Part shown: positions 43,599 to 54,756 of the stretch, in pieces
How positions within the stretch are numbered: position 1 is the first letter of the stretch
Layout of the letters: each line of letters starts with the position of its first letter
Assembly (NCBI GenBank): GCA_024397955.1
Contig: CP073744.1
Coordinates: forward strand, 1,054,001-1,118,000
DNA: 64,000 bases
DNA from: a bacterium SCSIO 12696
Lineage (GTDB): Bacteria; Pseudomonadota; Gammaproteobacteria; Pseudomonadales; Porticoccaceae
Reading direction: 5' to 3'
Translations under genes and position numbers: made by a program
Notes under the pieces: model-generated
The model's database searches: none
What the model was told of the DNA's origin: nothing
What the model saw: the letters and a program-made list of their open reading frames with translations, nothing else

Positions 43599-44285
43599 AT
43601 GACAACCACCATTCTGATCGTCGAAGACCACAGCGACCTGGCCGCCAATATTGGCGACTTTCTTGAGGCCGGTGGTTTTACCGTGGACTTTGCCGCCAAT
43701 GGCCCACTGGCGGTGCAATTGGCAGCCAACAATCACTACGACGCCGTGGTTCTGGATATTATGCTGCCCGGCATCGACGGCTACGAAGTCTGCCACCGGA
43801 TGCGCAATCAACTGGGGCTGGGCATGCCGATAATTATGCTCACCGCACGGGATACCCTGGATGATAAACTCACTGGCTTTGGTCGCGGCGCCGACGATTA
43901 CCTGGTAAAGCCATTTGAGTTAAAAGAGTTGGAAGCGCGTATTCATGCCCTTATTCGCCGCCAGCGCGGAGAACTGGAAAACAGCACCTTGCGCATCGGC
44001 GAGCTGACTTTTGACATCCAAACCATGCAGGTAAGCCGCTCGGGTCAGAACCTTAAATTGTCTCCCACCGGGCTAAAAATTCTGCGCCTGCTGATGCGCG
44101 AATCACCGAAAGTGGTGAGCCGGGAACAAATTGAAATGGAAATTTGGGGGGATGACGCACCAGACAGCGATGCACTGCGCAGCCATCTGTACACACTGCG
44201 CAAAGTGATCGATAAACCCTTTGATCAGCAACTACTGCACACCATTCCCGGTGTCGGTTTTAAGTTGTGCGACGATAGCCAATAA
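43599..44285 (+). CDS. OmpR/PhoB-family response regulator
   Basis: 228 residues. Receiver domain about 3-118 with acidic pair E9-D10, phosphoacceptor D53 and the LTARD and LVKPF signatures; winged-helix DNA-binding domain about 130-228 (SPTGLKILRLLMRESPKVVSREQI). The kinase gene is 1 kb away on the other strand and the SDR and DUF6482 genes lie in between, so it is probably the partner but not cotranscribed. The start at 43599 is the only one placing the receiver at its usual N-terminus. It converges on the DUF6482 gene with a 2-bp gap. Confidence 0.9.
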   Translation: MTTTILIVEDHSDLAANIGDFLEAGGFTVDFAANGPLAVQLAANNHYDAVVLDIMLPGIDGYEVCHRMRNQLGLGMPIIMLTARDTLDDKLTGFGRGADDYLVKPFELKELEARIHALIRRQRGELENSTLRIGELTFDIQTMQVSRSGQNLKLSPTGLKILRLLMRESPKVVSREQIEMEIWGDDAPDSDALRSHLYTLRKVIDKPFDQQLLHTIPGVGFKLCDDSQ

Positions 44286-44287
44286 AT

Positions 44288-44617
44288 TCAGTCGCTACCG
44301 TCACAGCCCTCGCCCACTGGCTTTGGCGATAATGGAACTCGTAAGCCATTGCCCATTGTCTTCACCGGCTGCCCTACCATTTCATCGTAGGCACTTTGCT
44401 GAATCAACCACATGGCCTCTACATGAATGCCGGAAAAGTCGTTTTTGATGTCCTCAATGGAGCGTCGACTGTACTCTTTGCCGGTTGCGGTACATAAGCT
44501 GTGATAGCGGCCATTGACCTTGGCCTGCACCACGTAAAGCGCCCCATCCAGCGAGTACAGTAACAGTTCTTCAACAGACTCCTGCCGCAACAGCTGAGTG
44601 ATTTTGATTTTTTTCAC
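44288..44617 (-). CDS. DUF6482-like protein
   Basis: 109 residues from a GTG at 44617, chosen because AGGAGG lies 4 nt upstream and the sequence begins at the conserved start KKIKITQLL. The long ATG start at 44653 would overlap the SDR gene. It has a mixed alpha-beta pattern and no signal. DUF6482-type proteins are small and functionally unknown. It is the last gene of the kinase-SDR unit, 8 bp after the SDR stop. Confidence 0.6.
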   Translation of the reverse strand: MKKIKITQLLRQESVEELLLYSLDGALYVVQAKVNGRYHSLCTATGKEYSRRSIEDIKNDFSGIHVEAMWLIQQSAYDEMVGQPVKTMGNGLRVPLSPKPVGEGCDGSD

Positions 44618-44625
44618 GGCGCCTC

Positions 44626-45339
44626 CTACCAGGGAATGGTTTTGCCCTGCCAATCCAGATAACTCAGTTGCCCATCTGGCTCCAGGTGATCAACGATAGA
44701 CAGTAATTGCTGAGCGACAAATTGCGGCGAAAATAATTTGCCGTCCGGCACATTCGCTTGAAAGGGCGTCGAAAGAGGAGTATCTGTCGTACCCGGATGA
44801 AACAGCATCAACTTGACCTGTTTAGCCCGGCGCGCGTACTCAACTGCAGCGGTTTTCACCGCCATATTCAGGGCTGCTTTGGAAGCACGATAACTGTACC
44901 AGCCACCCAGGCGGTTATCACCAATGCTGCCCACACGGGCACTGAATAGTGTGACCGTACAGGTACGGCCGTGATTGAGCAGTGGCAGTAAGTGCTTCAA
45001 CCACAGCAACGGCACTAACGTATTGCTGTTTAAAATATCCAGAAAATAGTTACCCGAAAGCTCTTCCAGGCGCTTCTCAGGCATAGTCGTTGAGTTATGA
45101 AGAACACCGTTGCAGATAAATACTCGGCGAATAACAGGGCCATTCTCTAACTGCTGTATAACAGACTCAATCTCAGCCTCACTGTAATCGCAGGACATCA
45201 AGTGAAGATTTGGATGCTTCGAGAAACCGGGATTTCGGCAAACACCATAGACAGCTGCATTTGGTTCAACAGCCAAAAGCTGGTCGATGATCGCCTTGGC
45301 GATACCACTGCCTGCTCCGATCACCAAACTATCACTCAT
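44626..45339 (-). CDS. Short-chain dehydrogenase/reductase
   Basis: 237 residues. NAD(P)-binding GAGSGIAKA (about 8-16) and the catalytic YSYRASK (YxxxK) follow a serine in LFSARVGSIGD. Relatives in the csgA-like SDR group occur in furan- or methyl-fatty-acid and photolyase gene clusters; the substrate is not known. The start codon overlaps the kinase stop by 4 bp, so the two are translated together. Confidence 0.85.
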   Translation of the reverse strand: MSDSLVIGAGSGIAKAIIDQLLAVEPNAAVYGVCRNPGFSKHPNLHLMSCDYSEAEIESVIQQLENGPVIRRVFICNGVLHNSTTMPEKRLEELSGNYFLDILNSNTLVPLLWLKHLLPLLNHGRTCTVTLFSARVGSIGDNRLGGWYSYRASKAALNMAVKTAAVEYARRAKQVKLMLFHPGTTDTPLSTPFQANVPDGKLFSPQFVAQQLLSIVDHLEPDGQLSYLDWQGKTIPW

Positions 45340-46649
45340 ACCAGGCCGCCATCACCAGTGCTAAAACAGACTCTGACTTCCGTCCCCTTACCCAATTCAC
45401 TATCCAGTTTTAGTGTCCAGCCATAGCGATTACACAGACGTTTGACAATGGCCATACCCAAACCGTGACCACCCAGCTCCCCTTCCGTACCGCCTCGATG
45501 AAATGGCGTTCCCAGCCTTTCCAAGGTGGCAGCATCCATACCGGGGCCGCTATCTTTTACCAGCAGGCAATGGGCTTCCAACACCACTTCTATCTTCCCT
45601 TCCGGAGTGTAGTTGTAGGCATTGCGCAGCAGATTATTGATCAAAATTTTGGCCACCGGTGTCGGTGCATCTACATTAAGCAGTTCTTTATCCACCACAC
45701 TGATTTCAATGGCCTTATCGTGAAAGACCGTGCCCAGTGCACCCAGTTCATCTTTCACCAGATCATTGATCACAACTTTGTCGGAAGGCAGCTGATTGCT
45801 TTCTTCTCTGGCCAGCAGCAACAGGGTTTCGATCAATGCTTCCATATCAAACAACGTTCGATACATACGTGTCACAGTAGCGTCGCCAAAATCTTTTTGT
45901 TTACGCTCCAGCAATTCCAGAGAGCTGCGCAAAACAGCAATGGGAGTACGCAGCTCATGGCTGGCATCGCGGGTAAAGTTGCGTTCCCGCTCGATAAATT
46001 CCCCAAGGCGCTCGGTAAAGTGGTCGAGAGCACGCACCAGGGTGGACACTTCCAAATCCCGAGCATGTCGCAATTCGTCCAAATTCAACGCCAGCCACTG
46101 GCCTTCTTTGGGCTCTGCTTCTTCCACTACTTTGGCCAATTTAACGATAGGGGAAATGGCCCGGTGGGACTGGCGATAAGCAAGCCAGGCAAAGATATAC
46201 AAAATGACCAACACGGCGGTTAACGGCAATATGCCAAACACCAAGGTCAGCAGAGACACACTCTCTTCATCAAAGATTAGATAAAGACGGTCAGCGCCGG
46301 AGGCAGTGGCTTTATCCTCCACATAAATAATGGGCTTGCTGCCATCAAAATGAACCCGCTGTAACCCAGGACGTAATTCACGCAATGGTAATGGAACGGT
46401 GCTGGCATCGCCGTTGTGAGCCAGAAATCCCCTCAAGTTGAGGGTATTGGGCATTGCCAGATCGGGATTTTGCTCTCGGTGTTGCCAAAAATATTCCGCC
46501 TCACCCTCCAGGGCTTTGCGCATCAACACACTTTCAATCATTTCCCTTGCAGCAAATACCCCCGCTGCGGCCACCAAGCTGATCAGGCCCACCTGCAATA
46601 GGAAGACCTTGGTCATTTTGGAATGGAGATTTTTTCTTGTTTTTGGCAT
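45336..46649 (-). CDS. Membrane sensor histidine kinase
   Basis: 437 residues. Transmembrane helices about 13-34 and 135-158 enclose a periplasmic sensor of about 100 residues (35-134) that I cannot place in a family. HAMP-like linker 160-200, phosphoacceptor H231 in HELRTP, then an ATPase domain with NNLLRNAYNYTPEG, DSGPGM and GGHGLGMAIVKRL. All catalytic boxes are intact. It is in the same run as the lipid genes, 28 bp after the second methyltransferase, and overlaps the SDR. Confidence 0.92.
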   Translation of the reverse strand: MPKTRKNLHSKMTKVFLLQVGLISLVAAAGVFAAREMIESVLMRKALEGEAEYFWQHREQNPDLAMPNTLNLRGFLAHNGDASTVPLPLRELRPGLQRVHFDGSKPIIYVEDKATASGADRLYLIFDEESVSLLTLVFGILPLTAVLVILYIFAWLAYRQSHRAISPIVKLAKVVEEAEPKEGQWLALNLDELRHARDLEVSTLVRALDHFTERLGEFIERERNFTRDASHELRTPIAVLRSSLELLERKQKDFGDATVTRMYRTLFDMEALIETLLLLAREESNQLPSDKVVINDLVKDELGALGTVFHDKAIEISVVDKELLNVDAPTPVAKILINNLLRNAYNYTPEGKIEVVLEAHCLLVKDSGPGMDAATLERLGTPFHRGGTEGELGGHGLGMAIVKRLCNRYGWTLKLDSELGKGTEVRVCFSTGDGGLV

Positions 46650-46677
46650 CTGCCGTCCTAAACACCCATCAACCGGC

Positions 46678-47712
46678 TCAGTGTAGCTTTTTGTTAAACA
46701 AATAGTGAGTCACCATCCATTCATTCCCTGACTGGTAGCCAAACAACTCTGCACAGGCCATAAAAAACATCCGCCAGCGCTGAGTCCAGATAGCCCCCTG
46801 CCCCTCACCGTAAGTCTGCTCGAACAGCTCAGTGATCTCCTTGCGGTGACGATCCATATTGTCGAGCCAGGCTTCCGATGTTTTTTGATAGTGACTGCCA
46901 TTCACCAACCATTGATCTTCAATGGTGAGATGATCCTGAAAGTAAAGCAATGTGTCAGCGGATGGCATCAATCCACCGGTGAAAAAATAACGCCCCATCC
47001 AGTTATCGTCCCCTTCGGTTTCAAAGGGATACAACACAGAGCGGTGACAAAAAATATGCACAAACAATTTGCCATCCTGACGCAACCAGCTACTCACCTT
47101 GGTAAGTAGTTTTTGGTAGTTGCGCACATGCTCAAACATTTCAATGGACACAATGCGGTCGAACTGTTGATCCAGTTCCAACTGGTTGACGTCCTGTGTA
47201 ATCACCTGAATATTATCGATACCACGCTGCTTGGCTTGTGCCTGAATATACTCACGCTGGGAATTGGAGTTGGAGACTGCAGTAATCCGTGAATTAGGCA
47301 GTTTTTCCGCCATAAACAGAGTGAGTGAACCCCAACCACACCCTAACTCGAGGATATCCTGCCCATCCTCAAATTGGCCACGCTGTAAGTACAGCTCCAG
47401 CATCAACTGTTCAGCATCTTCCAAGGTGCGAGTATTGTTATTCCACCAGCAACTGCTGTACTTCAAGTGCTGCCCAAGCGCCAGTTGGTAGAATTTCGCA
47501 GGTACTTCGTAGTGCTGTTCATTGGCGGCATCGGTTTCGATCGCAATGGGGCTGTTGCGCAACTGGTTAATCAGCTCACTTTTCTGGGCGCTGGCCAGCT
47601 CCGGGTTATTGGCAAACTCATCCTGTAAACGTTGCTTCAGCAGCTTACGAATACCCATACGGATAGCGGAATCCGGTACCAATTTTTTTTCTGCCAGATC
47701 AATCATTTTCAT
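46678..47712 (-). CDS. CFA-synthase-like SAM methyltransferase (cluster gene)
   Basis: 344 residues. SAM motif ILELGCGWGSLTLFMA (about 115-130) and the CFA-family segments HYEVPAKFYQLALGQHLKYSSCWW and YFFTGGLMPSADTLLYFQDHL are clear. It is shorter at the N-terminus than E. coli Cfa. It methylates or cyclopropanates unsaturated acyl chains in a lipid substrate, exact product unknown. ATG 47712 overlaps the DUF1295 stop by one base; GGAGAG lies upstream. A second, different CFA-type gene is at 49156. Confidence 0.9.
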   Translation of the reverse strand: MKMIDLAEKKLVPDSAIRMGIRKLLKQRLQDEFANNPELASAQKSELINQLRNSPIAIETDAANEQHYEVPAKFYQLALGQHLKYSSCWWNNNTRTLEDAEQLMLELYLQRGQFEDGQDILELGCGWGSLTLFMAEKLPNSRITAVSNSNSQREYIQAQAKQRGIDNIQVITQDVNQLELDQQFDRIVSIEMFEHVRNYQKLLTKVSSWLRQDGKLFVHIFCHRSVLYPFETEGDDNWMGRYFFTGGLMPSADTLLYFQDHLTIEDQWLVNGSHYQKTSEAWLDNMDRHRKEITELFEQTYGEGQGAIWTQRWRMFFMACAELFGYQSGNEWMVTHYLFNKKLH

Positions 47713-48527
47713 CAGTTGCTCTCCACAATTTTTTGCAAATTCTTTTTCCACGGGACAAATGCGCTGGTAGTCTCCCGATAGCGCAGATAGGCATCACCGC
47801 GAGAGCGGATAGCCTGTTGTTCGGTGTAGGGAATACCAGTAATAAAAATCAAGAACAGCAGCATCAACACCGGCGCCAGCCACAGCCATTCGCCACCGAC
47901 AATACCAATGGCGAGCAACGGATAACTGAACCAATGCAGCCATTCAAAAAAATAGTTGGGGTGACGGGAATAATTCCAAAGACCAACTTCACACACCTTG
48001 CCTTTATTGGCTGCTTGACTACGGAATTGCGCCAGCTGCTTATCCGACATAGTGACGCCCGCAAAAGCCACCAGCGCCAATATCACAGCCGTAATGTGTT
48101 GAGTGCCAGCTGCAGCCACTTCACCATTGGCGATCAACCAGGCGGGCAGGCTAAAGCACCAAATCAACAATGCCTGAAACTGAAAAAATAAAAAGTGATA
48201 CGGATTAACTCGTTTTCCCCAGTACTGGCGCAGATATTGATAGCGGCCATCTTCCGGCTCGGTAAATACCCGATGGGTCAGATAAACCCCCAGGCGCAAA
48301 TACCAACAACCCATGAGCAGTGCCACTGTCCAGCGCAACCACTCACTACCACCACCGGTAAAACCGTAGTAAAACGCAGACACGGAAATACCCAGTGCCC
48401 ATACCGCATCGACAATACCTGCATTATTGCTGCGCACTTGCCACAACCAGGCAAGTGCCATAGCAACACTGGCGGCCAACAGGGTCTCAACTGGTAAGCT
48501 TTCAACTGCAAAATCAGGCCAAGGCAT
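47712..48527 (-). CDS. DUF1295 membrane protein (steroid 5-alpha-reductase-like)
   Basis: 271 residues with about seven hydrophobic helices. The C-terminal motif GLWNYSRHPNYFFEWLHWFSYPL is the DUF1295 / steroid-5-alpha-reductase-type signature. It is inferred to be an NADPH-dependent reductase acting on a membrane lipid, though no enzyme assay supports this for the group. It overlaps both neighbours. Confidence 0.9.
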   Translation of the reverse strand: MPWPDFAVESLPVETLLAASVAMALAWLWQVRSNNAGIVDAVWALGISVSAFYYGFTGGGSEWLRWTVALLMGCWYLRLGVYLTHRVFTEPEDGRYQYLRQYWGKRVNPYHFLFFQFQALLIWCFSLPAWLIANGEVAAAGTQHITAVILALVAFAGVTMSDKQLAQFRSQAANKGKVCEVGLWNYSRHPNYFFEWLHWFSYPLLAIGIVGGEWLWLAPVLMLLFLIFITGIPYTEQQAIRSRGDAYLRYRETTSAFVPWKKNLQKIVESN

Positions 48528-49029
48528 GACGCCCCTCCTGCGACCACTTGGCCGCTTTTCTCAGTAGCAACGGCACCACCAACAACCAACTCAGTGATGT
48601 AGCGGCAATAACACCTGTGCTATCCAGCCACACTACCGCGCCCAACTTTTGCGCGCCGTAATAAGACAGCGGACTGCCAACAGCCGCCAATAACCCGGCC
48701 AGATACAAATTGCGCTGCATCCATGACAGGGAATGATTCAAGGTCAGCGCAAACGCCACCCACAGACAGACAATCCACAGAGGGGCCACCGGAAACAGTG
48801 GTTGATTTGAATATTGCAAAATACCCAGTAATGACCACAAGGTAGCCAGGAAAATGCCGATGGGAATGGCAAGTGCCAACAATTGCGCGTCTGCACGACG
48901 CACCGGTGATATGGAAAAATGAAGCAGCACAAAAGCCAACGTCGCCAGAACCGGCAACCAGGTATTGCCCCAACTGGCACCCAGTACACAGCTGAACCAA
49001 ACGATTTGAAAGGCAATAAAGTTAATCAT
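48514..49029 (-). CDS. DUF2878 membrane protein
   Basis: 171 residues, five hydrophobic helices. The SSWGNTW-like start (ASWGNTWLP), SPLSYYGAQKLGAV and SWLLVVPLLL are conserved in DUF2878, which is found beside CFA, DUF1365 and FAD-oxidoreductase genes. No function has been established. It overlaps the DUF1295 gene by 14 bp; a repeat separates it from the CFA gene upstream. Confidence 0.85.
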   Translation of the reverse strand: MINFIAFQIVWFSCVLGASWGNTWLPVLATLAFVLLHFSISPVRRADAQLLALAIPIGIFLATLWSLLGILQYSNQPLFPVAPLWIVCLWVAFALTLNHSLSWMQRNLYLAGLLAAVGSPLSYYGAQKLGAVVWLDSTGVIAATSLSWLLVVPLLLRKAAKWSQEGRHALA

Positions 49030-49057
49030 AAAACCACCACACTCTTGTTGATGGTTT

Positions 49058-49147
49058 GGGTAACGGTTTCAAAGACCGTGGCCAGCACGGACGCTGGCCT
49101 CGAGCCCCCATGGAAGGGTTTACGGCGTGTCTTTGAAACCGTTACCC
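49058..49147. repeat. Palindromic element with 19-bp perfect inverted repeats inside the lipid operon
   Basis: GGGTAACGGTTTCAAAGAC (49058-49076) and its exact inverse (49129-49147) enclose a 52-bp core that has its own GGCCAGC/GCTGGCC hairpin (about 49080-49099) and a CCC/GGG palindrome around CCATGG. It lies between the CFA gene and DUF2878. I recall closely similar 'TTTCAAAGACACGCCGTAAA' elements in marine gammaproteobacteria. No protein is encoded. Confidence 0.8.
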
Positions 49148-49155
49148 GCACCATC

Positions 49156-50439
49156 TCACTCTCCACCTGGAATCCACTGCTCACGACGATTCTCACTGGC
49201 AGCAAACAACAAGTGCACATCACTGATACTGCGCTCACGGAAACCGCCCTCGCAATAACACAGATAGAACTCCCACATACGGATAAACGCCTCCGAATAA
49301 CCCAGCTCACGCACCTGATCCAGCTGGTCCATAAAACGCTCACGCCAGTCCTGCAATGTCAGTGCGTAGCTGGGGCCAATATCCTCCAAATTCGTCAGCC
49401 GCAAACCCGCCTTCGCTGCACTGCCAGTCAGTACACTCACGCAGGGAATAAAACTGCCGGGGAAAATGTAACGCTTGATAAAATCCACCGAATTCAGCGC
49501 TTGCTTGTAACGATGATCTTCAATGGTGATTGCCTGAATTGCCCCCAGGCCATCCGGTTTCAGCAACTGCTGACATTGTTTGAAATAACCGTCCAGAAAT
49601 TGATGGCCCACGGCCTCCACCATTTCGATGGAAAGCAACTTGTCGTACTGGCCGTCCAGATCACGGTAATCTTCCAGCAGCACGGTGATTTTGTCGGACA
49701 AACCCGCACCGGCTATACGCTCTACCGCTAGTTTATATTGCTCTTCCGATATGGTTGTAGTGGTCACCCGGCAACCGTAATTCTGCGCAGCAAAGATAGC
49801 AGCGCCACCCCAACCGGTACCAATCTCCAACAAATGATCGGAAGGCTTTAAATCCAGCTTGTCGCACAACCTGGCTAACTTTAATTCCTGAGCCTGGGCC
49901 AGTGACTCATCACCCGTACGGTACAAAGCGGAGGAATACATCATCCACTCTTTGTCCAAAAACAACTCAAATAAATCGTTGCCAATATCGTAGTGGGCAG
50001 CAATATTGCGCCGACTGCCACTGCGATTGTTTTTATGGAATTGATGAACCGTTTTCAACAGCCACCCGGCAACGGTTGCTACCCCGCCTTCCATGCCATC
50101 CAGCAAATCCTGGTTGCGCACCAGAATGCGCACCAAGGCCGTTAAGTCAGAGCAATGCCACTCACCGGCCATATAAGATTCTGCAGCGCCCACACTGCCG
50201 CCGGTTGCCACACTTTGAAAAAAGGCACTGTCGTTAACATGCATTTGCACCTGCAAATCTGCCTGGCCATCTCCCAACAGGTAATGACCTCCGGGTGCCG
50301 CCAGGTGAATGGCACCATTTTTTAAGGGGCCAAGTCGATTCACAAACAACTTTTCGAATAACGTACTTTTGCGCTGCGTCTTTTCAGGGCTTTTTAAAAA
50401 ACGATTTTTTGCCGCAAGCGCGGTTACCTGAGTAGTCAT
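49156..50439 (-). CDS. cfa: Cyclopropane-fatty-acyl-phospholipid synthase family protein
   Basis: 427 residues. An N-terminal CFA-type domain (about 30-130) precedes a SAM fold with LEIGTGWGGAAIFAA, and the C-terminal IEMVEAVGHQFLDGYFKQC and YIFPGSFIPC segments are typical of Cfa. It methylates unsaturated acyl chains on phospholipids. It overlaps the DUF1365 gene by 4 bp. In Rhodobacter a Cfa-like gene in an equivalent cluster takes part in methyl/furan fatty-acid synthesis; the reaction here is inferred. Confidence 0.92.
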   Translation of the reverse strand: MTTQVTALAAKNRFLKSPEKTQRKSTLFEKLFVNRLGPLKNGAIHLAAPGGHYLLGDGQADLQVQMHVNDSAFFQSVATGGSVGAAESYMAGEWHCSDLTALVRILVRNQDLLDGMEGGVATVAGWLLKTVHQFHKNNRSGSRRNIAAHYDIGNDLFELFLDKEWMMYSSALYRTGDESLAQAQELKLARLCDKLDLKPSDHLLEIGTGWGGAAIFAAQNYGCRVTTTTISEEQYKLAVERIAGAGLSDKITVLLEDYRDLDGQYDKLLSIEMVEAVGHQFLDGYFKQCQQLLKPDGLGAIQAITIEDHRYKQALNSVDFIKRYIFPGSFIPCVSVLTGSAAKAGLRLTNLEDIGPSYALTLQDWRERFMDQLDQVRELGYSEAFIRMWEFYLCYCEGGFRERSISDVHLLFAASENRREQWIPGGE

Positions 50440-51230
50440 GACTTGTCTCCCGTTATTTCAGGTAAAGGGACTTTAGGTAAAGAAGAGGAATGAGTATTTG
50501 GGTGATCAAAAAAGGGAATGCGCTTCAGCCATAAGCGCAGTGCTTGCCAATAAATTCGCAACACCACCAACAGGGTTTGCATCGGGTAATGGATAGGCAA
50601 GAACGCCATGGATCTGCTTGTCAGCGGTTGCTGTTTTGTCGACATTACCGCGTCAAACTGACGCAGGCCGTCTTTGAGAAGTGTCATATGCACATGCGCT
50701 TTTTTAGCGCGCAACGTAAACCGCCAGTGGTACTGCAAATCCATAGGCATAAACGGTGATACGTGAAACTCCTTATCAAACTCGAAGCGAGTGCAGCCAT
50801 CGACAACCGGCAAAACATAACTGTGGCGTTCGTTCCAGGGAGTATTGTTGATTTCCGTAACGATGTAGCTCAGCTGATTATCGGGGTTGTAGCAGAAGTA
50901 ATAGGTAACCGGGTTGAACACAATGCCAAAGTAGCGCGGCTGGGTAAGGATTTTTACCGTACCTTCAAAGCGGTCACCACAATCGCGAAAGATGGCATTA
51001 ATCACCGCTTCTTTGAGATTGGCTTCCGGTGCGGCCAAATAGTCTTTACGGTAGAAGCCAATGGCATTAAAACGCTCCAACGACCACCAGCGACTTTTGG
51101 AAAAAGTCTTTTGTAGCTGATCCAGGTCTAGCAGCACCATCGCCATCGGGTAGCGAAACCGATGAGGTCTGGGACGGTGGCGGCTGTGCTGTACCCAACC
51201 TTTGTAGATGCCATCAGGTAACATGAGCAT
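50436..51230 (-). CDS. DUF1365 family protein
   Basis: 264 residues, a mostly beta-rich soluble protein with a hydrophobic C-terminal segment. Typical DUF1365 elements are YKGWVQHSRHRPRPHRFRY at the start, PRYFGIVFNPVTYYFCYN and the late MAFLPIHYPMQTLLVVLRIYWQAL. No activity is established. It is coupled at both ends (overlap 4 bp with cfa, 17 bp with the FAD oxidoreductase). Confidence 0.92.
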   Translation of the reverse strand: MLMLPDGIYKGWVQHSRHRPRPHRFRYPMAMVLLDLDQLQKTFSKSRWWSLERFNAIGFYRKDYLAAPEANLKEAVINAIFRDCGDRFEGTVKILTQPRYFGIVFNPVTYYFCYNPDNQLSYIVTEINNTPWNERHSYVLPVVDGCTRFEFDKEFHVSPFMPMDLQYHWRFTLRAKKAHVHMTLLKDGLRQFDAVMSTKQQPLTSRSMAFLPIHYPMQTLLVVLRIYWQALRLWLKRIPFFDHPNTHSSSLPKVPLPEITGDKS

Positions 51231-52563
51231 TCACCAGGTTACCTTCAATGTGATCCACCACTCGCAGGGCACTGCGTACCCCATCCTCGTGAAAACCCCA
51301 GCCCCAATAGGCACCGCAGTAATGGGTTCGGTTATGGCCGGATATCTGCGACCAGCGATGCTGCGCAGCCAGGGTAGCAGCGTTGTACACCGGGTGGCTG
51401 TAATGGCGTTCAGCGTAGACTTTTTCAGGGTCGATCAGATGTTCGCAATTGAGAGAAACGATAAAATCCGGTGTGCCATTGTCGGTTTGCAACCCAGCAC
51501 TGCCCAGCCCTTGTAGCTGATTCATGTGGTAGCTGACTGTGCATTGGTTAGACAGGTCGGCTCCTAAGCGCACGTTCCAACAGGCCCAGGCTTTGAGGTG
51601 GCGTGGAAGTACCGAGGTATCGCTGTGCAGCAGCATGTGATTGTTTTGATAGGCAATACTGCCTAGAACCTGCTGCTCGGTAGTGCTGGCATCTGCCAAC
51701 AAGGCCAGAGCTTGATCCGAATGGCAGGCTATGACCACTTGATCAAAGTGCTGTTGCTCGCCATTGATTTGCAAACTAACCCCATCTTCACTGCGCTGTA
51801 TCCGTTCCACCGGAGCATTGACATGAAGTTCACCACTGAATTTTTGCAGTAAAGCATCCACATAACTGCTGGAACCATCCTTGACCACCCGCCACTGGGG
51901 CCTTTTATTCAGCGTGAGCATGTGGTGGTTGTGCATAAACTGGACAAAGTAGCGTGCAGGAAACTGCTCAATGCTGGCACTGGGCCCCGACCAAAGCGCA
52001 CAAGCCATTGGGATCAAATGCTTTTCAATAAAAATGGGGCTGTAGCGATTTTCACGCAAGTAATCGCCCAGAGTCTGATCATTGGTGTCATCGTCCAGCA
52101 GTGACGGTGCCTGCCGGTAAAAGCGCAATAGATCTTTGATCATTCGATGGAATGTTGGACTAAAAATATTTTTGCGCTGGCAAAATAGCTTATCCAAATT
52201 GGTGGCGTTGTACTCCAACCCGGATATCGGGTCAGAGACACTAAAACTCATGGTGGTACGCTGGCTGGCCACACCCAGGTCTGTCAGCAAGCGGCAAAAA
52301 TTTGGGTAGTTTTCTTCGTTGAAAACGATAAAACCGCTGTCGATGCGCCAAAATTTTCCCGCCACATCGATATCGTGAGTGTCTACGTGGCCACCGGGGT
52401 AGTTACTGCTCTCAAACAGCGTTACCTGGTGGTTTTTGCCTGGACTGTTATCAAGGTTTTTATCAAGACTCTTATCCAGGTAATAGGCACAAGCCAAACC
52501 GGATATACCACTGCCCACAACGGCAATCCTTGTAGGCTGAGGGTTCACGTGTGGCGAATTCAT
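51214..52563 (-). CDS. FAD/NAD(P)-binding oxidoreductase (amine-oxidase-type fold)
   Basis: 449 residues. FAD-binding GSGISGLACAYYL (about 17-29) and the following ESSNYPGGHVDTHD give the amine-oxidase/phytoene-desaturase fold; a late CGAYWGWGFHEDGVRSAL motif closes the FAD site. Similar genes in the ufa-type cluster of Rhodobacter are described as acting on unsaturated acyl chains. Overlaps the desaturase gene by 4 bp. Confidence 0.88.
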   Translation of the reverse strand: MNSPHVNPQPTRIAVVGSGISGLACAYYLDKSLDKNLDNSPGKNHQVTLFESSNYPGGHVDTHDIDVAGKFWRIDSGFIVFNEENYPNFCRLLTDLGVASQRTTMSFSVSDPISGLEYNATNLDKLFCQRKNIFSPTFHRMIKDLLRFYRQAPSLLDDDTNDQTLGDYLRENRYSPIFIEKHLIPMACALWSGPSASIEQFPARYFVQFMHNHHMLTLNKRPQWRVVKDGSSSYVDALLQKFSGELHVNAPVERIQRSEDGVSLQINGEQQHFDQVVIACHSDQALALLADASTTEQQVLGSIAYQNNHMLLHSDTSVLPRHLKAWACWNVRLGADLSNQCTVSYHMNQLQGLGSAGLQTDNGTPDFIVSLNCEHLIDPEKVYAERHYSHPVYNAATLAAQHRWSQISGHNRTHYCGAYWGWGFHEDGVRSALRVVDHIEGNLVNAHVT

Positions 52564-53519
52564 CCTTGCTGCTCCGCGGTATTCTGAATAGCATCTTTCG
52601 CCAAATGATTACTGTCCCGCCGTTTTAGTGGAATGGTACGCAGGTTCCAGATCAGTCCCATACGCTCCATGCCCTTGAGCAAGTAATAGCTCATATCAAT
52701 TTCCCACCAGTAAAAGCCCTGGCGAGCTGAAGCCGGGTAATAATGGTGATTGTTATGCCAGCCCTCTCCCAAAGTCATAAACGCCAGCCAGAAGTTATTG
52801 CGACTCTCATCTGGCGTACCGTAACGAACCGAGCCAAAACGGTGCGCGAGGGAATTGATGCACAAGCTGGCGTGAATCAGCACCACGGTAGACACAAAAT
52901 ACCCCCACACCAGCATTTGCGGGCCAGTGGTATTCAGTTGTGGGGCCACGGCTTCCAGTAAAGCACCCAGTCCATAGAGGAATACTGCCAACAGTACCGG
53001 TACTGCCAAGTCGTGACGATCCAACCAACGCAACTCGGGGAAGCGCTGGAAATCCGAAATCAACGAGTAATCCGCCTGAAAGTGACGGTGAGACAAAAAC
53101 CAACCCATGTGACTCCACCAAAAACCATCTTTGGGAGAGTGGGCATCGCCTTCCCGATCAGAACAACGGTGGTGATTGCGATGATGAGCCGCCCACCACA
53201 ATGGGCCACGCTGAGTGGCACTGGCCCCTAACAAGGCAAACAGAAACTGCACCATCCGGCTAGTATGAAAAGTTTTGTGAGAAAAGTAGCGGTGGTAAAA
53301 CGCAGTAATGGCAAACATTCTGGCAATGTAGAGTGCAGCTGCCACGCCCAAAGCAATCCACGAAAATCCCACAAAAAACACCCCTAAACAGGCCAGGTGT
53401 AAAAGGATAAAGGGGATAATGCGCACCCAATCTACTTGTCGGTCATTCCCTGACTCAGCCAAGGTATTCAGCGAATCGCTATTTTGTTGATTGTCGAACC
53501 AGGATTTGATTGCTTTCAT
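52560..53519 (-). CDS. Membrane fatty-acid desaturase (delta-9 DesC-like)
   Basis: 319 residues, four membrane helices in two pairs. The three histidine boxes are all present: HRYFSH (about 83-88), HHRNHH (about 121-126) and EGWHNNHH (about 250-257), the signature of acyl-CoA/acyl-lipid delta-9 desaturases using oxygen and di-iron. It supplies cis double bonds on which the CFA-type enzymes downstream can act. ATG 53519 is chosen; the ATG at 53585 would run through the palindrome. First gene of the ten-gene run. Confidence 0.92.
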   Translation of the reverse strand: MKAIKSWFDNQQNSDSLNTLAESGNDRQVDWVRIIPFILLHLACLGVFFVGFSWIALGVAAALYIARMFAITAFYHRYFSHKTFHTSRMVQFLFALLGASATQRGPLWWAAHHRNHHRCSDREGDAHSPKDGFWWSHMGWFLSHRHFQADYSLISDFQRFPELRWLDRHDLAVPVLLAVFLYGLGALLEAVAPQLNTTGPQMLVWGYFVSTVVLIHASLCINSLAHRFGSVRYGTPDESRNNFWLAFMTLGEGWHNNHHYYPASARQGFYWWEIDMSYYLLKGMERMGLIWNLRTIPLKRRDSNHLAKDAIQNTAEQQG

Positions 53520-53558
53520 ACAGCCCCCTGTGGATGGGGCTAATCTAGTAGCGGTTCT

Positions 53559-53596
53559 GTGAAAAACCTGTGAAGTTGATTTCACAGGTTTTTCAC
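53559..53596. promoter_or_regulatory. 16-bp perfect palindrome followed by T8 in the divergent promoter region
   Basis: GTGAAAAACCTGTGAA (53559-53574) and its exact inverse (53581-53596) with a 6-nt loop sit between the desaturase start (53519, minus) and the NTF2-like start (53612, plus), followed by AATTTTTTTT. Reads either as an operator or as a terminator-like attenuator in the plus-strand leader. A smaller hairpin (AGCCCC/GGGGCT, 53522-53541) is next to the desaturase start. Confidence 0.7.
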
Positions 53597-53611
53597 AATT
53601 TTTTTTGTGTA

Positions 53612-54208
53612 ATGGCGCTCATGAATCGAGCGCTCAAAATTTATTCTGTACTCTGTACCTTGCTGGTCAGCATCTGCTTAGCTGGAATTATCTGGATGTA
53701 CACCAGCGTTGAAACGCCACCAAACTCGTTCAATAGCCAGAATTACCAAAACGCGTTGGCAAGGTACCCCGGAACACTGGCAAGCGATGAAGACATACAA
53801 CGCTTTGCCAGCGTCTATGGTGACCTCAAATCAAAAGAGCTCAATGAATCCATCAACAGCCTTTATGCGGAATCATTGTATTTCAACGACACATTCAATA
53901 CCTTTGAACATCGCAACGAGCTGCGCGACTACTTAGTGCATACCGCGAATAACCTGATCACTTCAGAAGTGGTTGTTGATGACGTCGCTCGCAGTGGTAA
54001 CGAAGTGTATCTACGCTGGACAATGACTATTAGCTTGTCTGTCAAAGGCAAAGTCATCAACAGTGAATCCGCAGGGGTTACTCATCTTCGTTTTAACCCC
54101 AACGGCAAGGTTATCGTCCATCAGGATTTCTGGGACGGGGTGGATGGCTTTTATCAACACCTTCCTTATCTGGGCGGCGCCACCAAACTGCTGAGAGAAC
54201 AGTTATGA
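53612..54208 (+). CDS. Membrane-anchored NTF2/SnoaL-like protein
   Basis: 198 residues from ATG 53612 (or 195 from 53621). A hydrophobic helix (about 11-33) anchors a domain of about 150 residues with the NTF2-like pattern (ITSEVVVDDVARSGNEVYLRWTMT, DFWDGVDGFYQHLPYLGG). Related proteins are common next to SDR/FAD/CFA lipid clusters; a lipid-binding or helper role is possible, not shown. It overlaps the next gene by 4 bp (ATGA). Confidence 0.72.
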   Translation: MALMNRALKIYSVLCTLLVSICLAGIIWMYTSVETPPNSFNSQNYQNALARYPGTLASDEDIQRFASVYGDLKSKELNESINSLYAESLYFNDTFNTFEHRNELRDYLVHTANNLITSEVVVDDVARSGNEVYLRWTMTISLSVKGKVINSESAGVTHLRFNPNGKVIVHQDFWDGVDGFYQHLPYLGGATKLLREQL

Positions 54209-54756
54209 AATTATTTCTAATTCTAGTGGCAGCCATGATTTCCAGCGTCGCTGCCGCCACTACCAGTATCAATAAATTCACTGACCATGTGATGGTTGAA
54301 GAGCAGAAACTGCAGCTGTGTAATCGCGCCGACATCAGAGTCATGGCCATGTTCAATGTGGGCGAAGCGGCTCTCTACTTGCAAGAATGTGATCGCACAC
54401 AAGAACGCTTGGACCAACCTGCCCAGCTGTCTATTGTTTACCGACGGGATTTCAGTGCTAAAGATTTTCAAAGTTCCGCTCGAAAACTGCTGAAGCGCAA
54501 CCTGGACAGCCAGACTTTTAACGCTATTGAAGCTGAGCTAAAGCGTTTCAACGACAACTATCAGGCGATGTCCAAAGGTGATCGTTACGATATCTGTTAT
54601 TCACAGAAAAGCGGCTTGATGCTGCACAAAAATGGCGAATTAATTTCAAGCAGCCAGTCTCAACAACTGGGCGAAGCCTACCTGATGATCTGGTTTGGCG
54701 ATCGCCCATTTAGTCAAAAACTCAAGAAGAAGCTGTTAGCAGCAAGTAACGGCTAA
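54205..54756 (+). CDS. Chalcone-isomerase-like exported protein
   Basis: 183 residues, signal peptide about 1-17 (ISSVAAATTS). The C-terminal YLMIWFGDRPFSQKLKKKLL is the recognisable motif of bacterial chalcone-isomerase-like proteins (Pfam chalcone_3 type), and FNVGEAALYLQEC the earlier one. In plants such folds bind fatty acids or flavonoids; here fatty-acid binding fits the context. It forms a two-gene unit with the NTF2-like protein and ends 7 bp from the convergent TraB/GumN gene. Confidence 0.78.
   Translation: MKLFLILVAAMISSVAAATTSINKFTDHVMVEEQKLQLCNRADIRVMAMFNVGEAALYLQECDRTQERLDQPAQLSIVYRRDFSAKDFQSSARKLLKRNLDSQTFNAIEAELKRFNDNYQAMSKGDRYDICYSQKSGLMLHKNGELISSSQSQQLGEAYLMIWFGDRPFSQKLKKKLLAASNG

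Follow-up and report, generated by a model that had tools for sequence, protein, structure and literature searches.

A predicted furan fatty acid operon with a ColRS-like two-component system in a Porticoccaceae bacterium

Introduction

Furan fatty acids are thought to shield membranes from reactive oxygen. For Rhodobacter, it has been proposed that their oxidation contributes to triggering the ChrR response (PMC6852236, PMC7380195). The ufa genes encode UfaM, a methylase like the cyclopropane fatty acid (CFA) enzymes, UfaD, a desaturase with an FAD/NAD domain, and UfaO, a DUF1365 protein (Lemke et al. 2020, PMC7380195); in Rhodopseudomonas palustris they are RPA2571-2570-2569, and FufM (RPA0924) yields a dimethyl furan (PMC7380195). 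Here we analyse a stretch of 64,000 nucleotides (the window; positions 1,054,001 to 1,118,000 of contig CP073744.1) from bacterium SCSIO 12696, a member of the Porticoccaceae with a genome of 2.93 Mb in one contig, in which ten minus-strand genes, including lipid genes of these families and a sensor kinase gene, face a convergent response regulator gene. As an overall explanation, we consider it fairly likely that this is a furan fatty acid operon switched by a two-component system of its own.

Control of furan fatty acid genes by sigma-E/ChrR has been published (PMC6852236), as has light control of ufaM by LitR in Pseudomonas, with induction by light in P. mendocina (PMC9758184). No report of two-component control of ufa genes was found among the open-licence papers listed, which were often a small fraction of those matching and were judged by titles and the beginnings of abstracts. 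ColRS, the Pseudomonas system to which we compare the regulator pair of the window, is reported to act on membrane functions and to sense Zn and Fe(III), and the FExRE motif described for ColS is needed in metal sensing (PMC4074579). While the enzymes and the regulator family are known, their combination, its spread and the promoter code appear to be new by the papers listed.

The predicted product

The enzyme families of the window agree with those of the ufa gene set, and the genes for the FAD oxidoreductase, DUF1365 and the first methyltransferase (CFA1) follow one another in the ufaD-ufaO-ufaM order of RPA2571-2570-2569; an initial annotation made from the sequence alone had likened the run to clusters that include ufa genes. 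The best solved relative of CFA1 is a CFA synthase (PDB 6bqc, E 8.8e-58). The other methyltransferase, which that annotation had described as a second CFA-like enzyme, turned out to resemble coclaurine N-methyltransferases more than CFA synthases: it matches the plant enzyme 6gkv over nearly its whole length (E 1.4e-85) and the CFA synthase 7qos only at 2e-28, and it is 25% identical to the UfaM-like protein of the window across a 193-column alignment. This points to a FufM-like enzyme, and not a second CFA synthase. The kinship with FufM leans on Arabidopsis AT4G33110, which we take to be itself coclaurine-N-methyltransferase-like. FufM is reported to be 37.87% identical to this protein (PMC10940516). 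Among the Chlamydomonas genes whose induction by singlet oxygen depends on SAK1 are CFA1, CFA2, DUF1365 and DUF1295, and Chlamydomonas CFA2 is listed elsewhere in the same paper as a coclaurine N-methyltransferase (PMC4067076).

The FufM-like methylase is regularly accompanied by DUF1295. We compared 38 FufM-like loci of other groups, presumably largely Alphaproteobacteria (20 of the 32 places outside the genome of the window from one search, and 18 further places from a second), and 40 loci with a kinase of the window type, hand-chosen mainly by score from 53 places outside the genome of the window and Porticoccus sp. W117, its closest named relative by kinase search (97% identity). Genes were labelled by BLAST with the window proteins on open reading frame (ORF) calls, so that weak or overlapping genes may be missed, and the ORF-picking rule was not identical across all locus comparisons. 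DUF1295 lies within 3.5 kb of the methylase gene and on the same strand in 34 of the 38 FufM-like loci, and within 3.5 kb in all 18 kinase loci that carry the methylase; furthermore, two single proteins (P0218 and P0236) have the Pfam domains of both. DUF1295 may be a partner of the FufM-like enzyme, and this regular pairing and occasional fusion gives a testable function to a family of unknown function with members in bacteria as well as algae. In loci L078 and L103, long open frames (609 and 589 aa) suggest the same fusion.

Because of the ufa gene order, the likeness of the second methylase to FufM, the pairing with DUF1295 and the SAK1-dependent gene set of Chlamydomonas, the run is probably a mono- to dimethyl-furan fatty acid operon, a reading from homology. 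That the product is a furan fatty acid at all we consider likely. A plain cyclopropane or branched-chain fatty acid cluster, making no furan, would agree with the naming of both methyltransferases as CMAS by Pfam and with the CFA synthase kinship of CFA1, but it would account neither for FAD and DUF1365 partners in ufaD-ufaO-ufaM order nor for a second enzyme of coclaurine-N-methyltransferase type, and we judge it unlikely. Compared with the furan pathway of Rhodobacter sphaeroides and R. palustris, the window has the same enzyme families, the UfaD-UfaO-UfaM order and a FufM-type methylase, but it has them in one run together with a desaturase, DUF2878, DUF1295 and a kinase, and with a two-component regulator in place of sigma-E/ChrR.

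Linkage of the kinase to the lipid genes

The complete run is conserved in the same order in W117 (L034), and two further loci (L076 and L077) have the order desaturase-FAD-DUF1365-CFA1-DUF2878-DUF1295-FufM-like-kinase with the convergent regulator and without the short-chain dehydrogenase/reductase (SDR) and DUF6482, which lie within the run only in W117 among the loci examined. At least one of the seven lipid genes lies within 8 ORFs of the kinase in 30 of the 40 kinase loci, and at least two in 27; in all 16 loci with the methylase no more than 4 kb from the kinase, the two share a strand. The regulator is encoded on the strand opposite the kinase in 25 of the 40 and on the same strand in 12, with none within 3 ORFs in the remaining 3. 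In an even sample of 369 Gammaproteobacteria, searched with at most four first-look candidates scored per genome, the kinase was present at E <=1e-70 in 22, the genome of the window included, and DUF1365 occurred in 20 of these 22 vs 94 of the 347 kinase-negative genomes (Fisher p 2.3e-9, uncorrected for ancestry). We are rather confident that the kinase/regulator pair is linked in regulation to the lipid operon.

Each of the seven lipid proteins of the window is closer to that of L076, which belongs to another order (44-71% identity), than to that of a congener, G001 (37-59%), and a concatenated ufa tree (80 of 122 loci, support values not printed) places the window among the kinase-type loci, apart from other Porticoccaceae. 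On these two grounds, operon and switch were probably transferred together and acquired so in Porticoccus; an old duplication with losses may be an alternative.

Promoter boxes

An expectation-maximisation motif search of 24 promoters, those of the 42 kinase loci (W117 and the window now included) that have a divergent pair, returned a direct repeat, TTCAC-N6-TTCAC. It occurs exactly in 15 of the 24 and with at least 9 of 10 positions in all 24 (shuffle means 0.015 and 0.375). Promoters were then scanned in all loci with a usable upstream region, i.e. 40 of the 42 kinase loci, 36 of 42 DUF1365 loci of the Porticoccaceae without the kinase and 37 of the 38 FufM-like loci. Among the 16 kinase loci outside the discovery set, 10 have a box with at least 9 of 10 positions and 7 an exact one (shuffle means 0.62 and 0.03), and the controls gave none in 36 family promoters and two, both at 9/10, in the 37 FufM-like promoters. 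These two near-boxes precede the desaturase gene in lipid loci of ECF-ChrR type (extracytoplasmic function sigma factor; L117 and L118); the genome of L117 (G385) carries the kinase elsewhere, and L118 is from the same genus.

The window holds two exact boxes, back to back and 22 bp apart, vs a chance expectation of 0.17, and two were reached in 1 of 100 shuffles. Although the -10 element formed no part of the motif search, xAxxxT stands exactly 11 bp past the box in 31 of 37 cases, vs 0-5 at ten other offsets of 6-16. Such fixed geometry is that of an activator replacing the -35 element, as for OmpR/PhoB-type regulators, and the failure of a sigma-70 scan to find anything at the operon promoter is expected if the activator site replaces the -35. 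The first ATG lies 5-9 nt past the -10 in 21 of the 37 cases, some of these ATGs opening short frames, and leaderless messages are therefore predicted; the -10 on the SnoaL side of the window, if used, could possibly give one as well. The best opposed pair is separated by 21-23 bp in 10 of the 24 promoters, most of them from one family, and by 31-33 bp in another 5, spacings near two or three turns of the helix; seven others are at 13, 17, 36, 37, 45, 60 and 66 bp, several with weak boxes, and two have no pair.

A simple terminator scan ranks 53558-53597 first, with a T run after it, and the two boxes could accordingly be read as an 18-pair terminator hairpin, the kinase pair regulating something else. 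We regard this as very improbable: the site lies between divergent starts, the distance between boxes varies among relatives, and the -10-like elements keep their 11 bp. It is also possible to read the pair as one that elsewhere mainly controls the later part of the run (FufM-DUF1295-DUF2878) and here accompanies the ufa part as a passenger. In 15 of the 40 kinase loci, the genes labelled within 8 ORFs of the kinase were limited to DUF2878, DUF1295 and/or the FufM-like gene (e.g. L096, L097 and L099), with no desaturase or ufa-core gene in that range; L083 does carry ufa genes, at a greater distance within its locus. The boxes speak against a passenger role, which seems quite improbable, since one stands ahead of the desaturase at the head of the entire run in the window, L034, L076, L077, L078 and L105, and one faces a SnoaL gene followed by ufa genes in L079, L082, L086, L090 and L094.

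Relation to ColRS

The regulator is 53-56% identical to regulators beside FExRE kinases in 7 genomes, presumed Pseudomonas-like, and a 52-regulator tree unites the window type with ColR at 98/98, with 6 other regulators as a sparse outgroup; both share PDSD-LRSH within the DNA-binding domain. By eye, 5 of 6 footprinted ColR sites inspected agree with the box in at least 9 of its 10 positions (PMC2689224). The T-tract of the published ColR consensus is neither general nor discriminating. The kinase is more distant: a search of 10 genomes gave 8 with a match at E <=1e-25, and the identity to ColS is 28-31%. The best match carries FExRE in 7 of the 8, all of one presumed Pseudomonas-like family, the eighth, from another family, being without it, and FExRE occurs in none of the 42 kinases of the window type, the window included. 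Judged by eye, the kinase of the window has two membrane helices flanking a periplasmic part of about 100 residues; its structure model (mean pLDDT 70.9, pTM 0.41) matched mainly kinase cores among the 50 matches listed, and no sensor fold was recognised.

These features raise the question of whether this is an ordinary ColRS metal-excess sensor that stands beside lipid genes by chance, with an operon that answers zinc or iron and not photo-oxidation. The ColR-like regulator and boxes would fit, as would the Zn and Fe(III) sensing and the membrane functions reported for ColRS (PMC4074579), and some ExxE is found in the sensor region of 12 of the 42 kinases. That of the window, EMIE, however, lies just past the first membrane helix and not at the FExRE site, and is shared only with W117; with FExRE in 0/42 kinases of this type vs the best match in 7/7 genomes of the presumed Pseudomonas-like family, and so low an identity to ColS, a metal sensor of this kind appears improbable. 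Judged from the sequences, the system is ColRS-like, not ColRS: it resembles Pseudomonas ColRS in the grouping of its regulator, the TTCAC direct repeats and membrane-related targets, and differs in a sensor without FExRE, in a predicted furan fatty acid operon as target and in convergent genes in place of the tandem regulator-kinase order (L161-L167). Furthermore, ColR of P. putida reportedly does not control its own expression (PMC2689224); several kinase loci, by contrast, have a box at 9/10 or 10/10 with a -10 ahead of the regulator or kinase gene (9/10 boxes were counted only when a -10 was present).

Other switches at ufa-type loci

DUF1365 is present in 43 of the 112 genomes of the family of the window. 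All 43 places outside its own genome were examined, one being W117; the other 42 loci, several of them on short contigs (3.3 to 6 kb), gave a CarH-like match in 6 (some weak), an ECF match in 13 and a ChrR match in 11, and three CarH-like proteins and one ECF-ChrR pair were verified with Pfam and NCBIfam. In the congener G001 (L033), a MerR-B12 regulator and a photolyase stand in the place of the kinase. A ChrR match occurs in 18 of the 38 FufM-like loci from other groups, each time with ufa-like genes within 9 kb of the methylase, and ECF-ChrR-DUF1295-FufM-like genes often point away from the ufa genes in a divergent arrangement.

In the genome of the window, family searches yielded no ChrR, the sole Cupin_7 protein found being a 231-aa double cupin, and no CarH/LitR, the sole B12-binding_2 match lying in a 1260-aa frame that is probably MetH, judging by its length. 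The locus shares its lipid genes with the ECF11 sigma-E/ChrR regulon, whose ECF-ChrR genes adjoin them in L035 and related loci and in many of the FufM-like loci from other groups, but no ChrR anti-sigma factor with a zinc anti-sigma domain plus cupin was found in its genome; likewise, it differs from the class II LitR/CarH systems of P. putida and P. mendocina, represented beside the same genes in G001, in that a MerR with B12-binding domains was not found. The initial annotation had proposed that the kinase and regulator replace an ECF switch. The pair is indeed there and ChrR was not found, but the exchange is wider than proposed, with CarH/LitR as a second alternative. In L083, the kinase pair and a CarH-like match occur together in one FufM-like/ufa locus, perhaps a regulator swap in progress. 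The double cupin (C1:1193474-1194097) has two Cupin_7 domains with no anti-sigma domain seen and is easily taken for ChrR; no sigma gene was seen by eye among the ORFs of the surrounding 3.3-kb locus (L001).

Proposed mechanism

We propose that the membrane kinase senses the state of the envelope and phosphorylates the ColR-like regulator, which would fill the two back-to-back boxes between 53559 and 53596 so that both promoters fire, the operon leftward and the SnoaL and chalcone-isomerase-like genes rightward. As the kinase gene lies inside the operon that it would control, positive feedback is proposed. The desaturase may supply an unsaturated chain; UfaM (CFA1) would methylate the mono-unsaturated acyl chain on the phospholipid, UfaD (the FAD protein) would then desaturate it, UfaO (DUF1365) would insert oxygen and close the furan ring, and the FufM-like methylase, with DUF1295, would add the second methyl group. 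That the signal is photo-oxidative or comes from oxidised envelope lipids is a guess, and a rather doubtful one. We are evenly balanced on the joint reading, in which a divergent ColRS-type system that senses the periplasm would be a third independent furan switch beside ChrR/sigma-E and LitR/CarH, acting through back-to-back boxes on two divergent, often leaderless promoters, having moved together with the operon, and with DUF1295 as the partner of FufM in dimethyl-furan synthesis. If envelope kinase control holds in Porticoccus and in methylotrophs, its signal and evolutionary logic differ from those of the ChrR response, and the base-resolved promoter makes the circuit testable by reporter.

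Several points weigh against a furan fatty acid operon under such a switch. The sequence itself shows the gene content, the conserved linkage and the boxes with their spacing; the product, the phosphotransfer, the binding of the regulator, the FufM identity, the role of DUF1295 and the signal are things that we infer. In 10 of the 40 kinase loci, none of the lipid genes lies within 8 ORFs of the kinase, and the kinase was found in none of the 42 other DUF1365 loci of its own family, some of them clipped by contig ends; the expectation that the kinase would be conserved with these genes therefore held in distant relatives but, W117 apart, not within the family. The discovery promoters are not independent, 11 of the 24 coming from one family, and the same loci trained the motif; across held-out loci scanned over their full length, no more than 4 of 10 exact boxes had the -10 at 11 bp. 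The genome holds as many copies of the exact box as of its reversed control (6 vs 6), and the TGTAAT on the SnoaL side lacks the A, so that its box is one of the 6 (of 37) in which xAxxxT does not follow at 11 bp. Finally, the published ColR consensus with at most one mismatch does not discriminate, matching 7 of 40 kinase loci vs 11 of 36 and 0 of 37 controls.

Gene layout and further observations

All ten minus-strand genes and the plus-strand regulator of the initial annotation are present with the families it gave (Table 1), and by their ORF coordinates they are tightly packed, with junctions of 1-17 bp overlap or 8-126 bp gap as it had stated. Overlaps are of 4 bp (desaturase/FAD, DUF1365/CFA1 and kinase/SDR), 17 bp (FAD/DUF1365) and 14 bp (DUF2878/DUF1295), and gaps of 126 bp (CFA1/DUF2878) and 28 bp (FufM-like/kinase). 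DUF1295 and the FufM-like gene overlap by 1 bp, given the 344-aa start at 47712 (P0121 is of equal length), and SDR and DUF6482 are 8 bp apart, provided that the latter starts at 44617. The 3' end of the convergent regulator gene is 2 bp from DUF6482. The most likely start of the desaturase is ATG 53519, which gives the 319-aa form seen in L034, and not GTG 53585; for SnoaL it is 53621.

Table 1. Features of the predicted furan fatty acid locus, in window coordinates (SAM, S-adenosylmethionine)
Feature	Position	Strand	Match
OmpR-family response regulator, ColR-like, convergent	43599..44285	+	PF00072+PF00486
DUF6482 protein, start perhaps 44617	44288..44653	-	PF20090 E 1.6e-26
SDR oxidoreductase, PRK09009-like	44626..45339	-	NF006532 222.4 bits, under its cut-off 330
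Sensor histidine kinase	45336..46649	-	HisKA+HATPase
Coclaurine-N-methyltransferase-like SAM methyltransferase, candidate FufM (furan-ring methylase)	46678..47712	-	PDB 6gkv E 1.4e-85
DUF1295 membrane protein, weak Steroid_dh match	47712..48527	-	PF06966 E 1.1e-61, PF02544 E 3.3e-8
DUF2878 protein	48514..49029	-	PF11086 E 3.9e-38
CFA-type methyltransferase (CFA1), candidate UfaM	49156..50439	-	PF02353 E 1.6e-81; PDB 6bqc E 8.8e-58
DUF1365 protein, candidate UfaO	50436..51230	-	PF07103 E 2.4e-81
FAD-dependent oxidoreductase, flavin amine-oxidase-like, candidate UfaD	51214..52563	-	PF01593 E 1.6e-26
Membrane fatty acid desaturase, leads operon	52560..53519	-	PF00487; acyl-CoA desaturase 4ymk E 5.1e-25
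Predicted -10 TAGATT of desaturase operon, 11 bp past box	53542..53547	-	
Regulator-type box TTCACAGGTTTTTCAC toward desaturase operon	53559..53574	-	
Regulator-type box TTCACAGGTTTTTCAC toward SnoaL	53581..53596	+	
Possible -10 TGTAAT, 11 bp past box, 7 nt ahead of ATG 53621	53608..53613	+	
SnoaL-like protein, divergent operon	53621..54208	+	PF12680
Chalcone-isomerase-like protein, divergent operon	54205..54756	+	PF16036 E 2.8e-24

Elsewhere in the genome, an exact box at C1:1478203-1478218 (L159), with TGTAAT at 11 bp, lies upstream of an M48 peptidase gene, a possible regulon member, although genome-wide counts are at chance. Of the remaining exact boxes, one lies inside a ferrochelatase gene, one overlaps the end of a small ORF that precedes a MerB-like gene, and one is about 300 bp ahead of an aminotransferase gene. 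Among other Porticoccaceae, the ufa loci L042, L049, L054 and their kin have FufM-like genes with no linked regulator recognised and an upstream gene, which in L042 encodes an Smr-domain protein; L042 also has lipocalin and DUF6134 genes. The sole Rfam match above gathering score in the window is a cobalamin riboswitch at 2207-2388 on the minus strand (63.8 bits).

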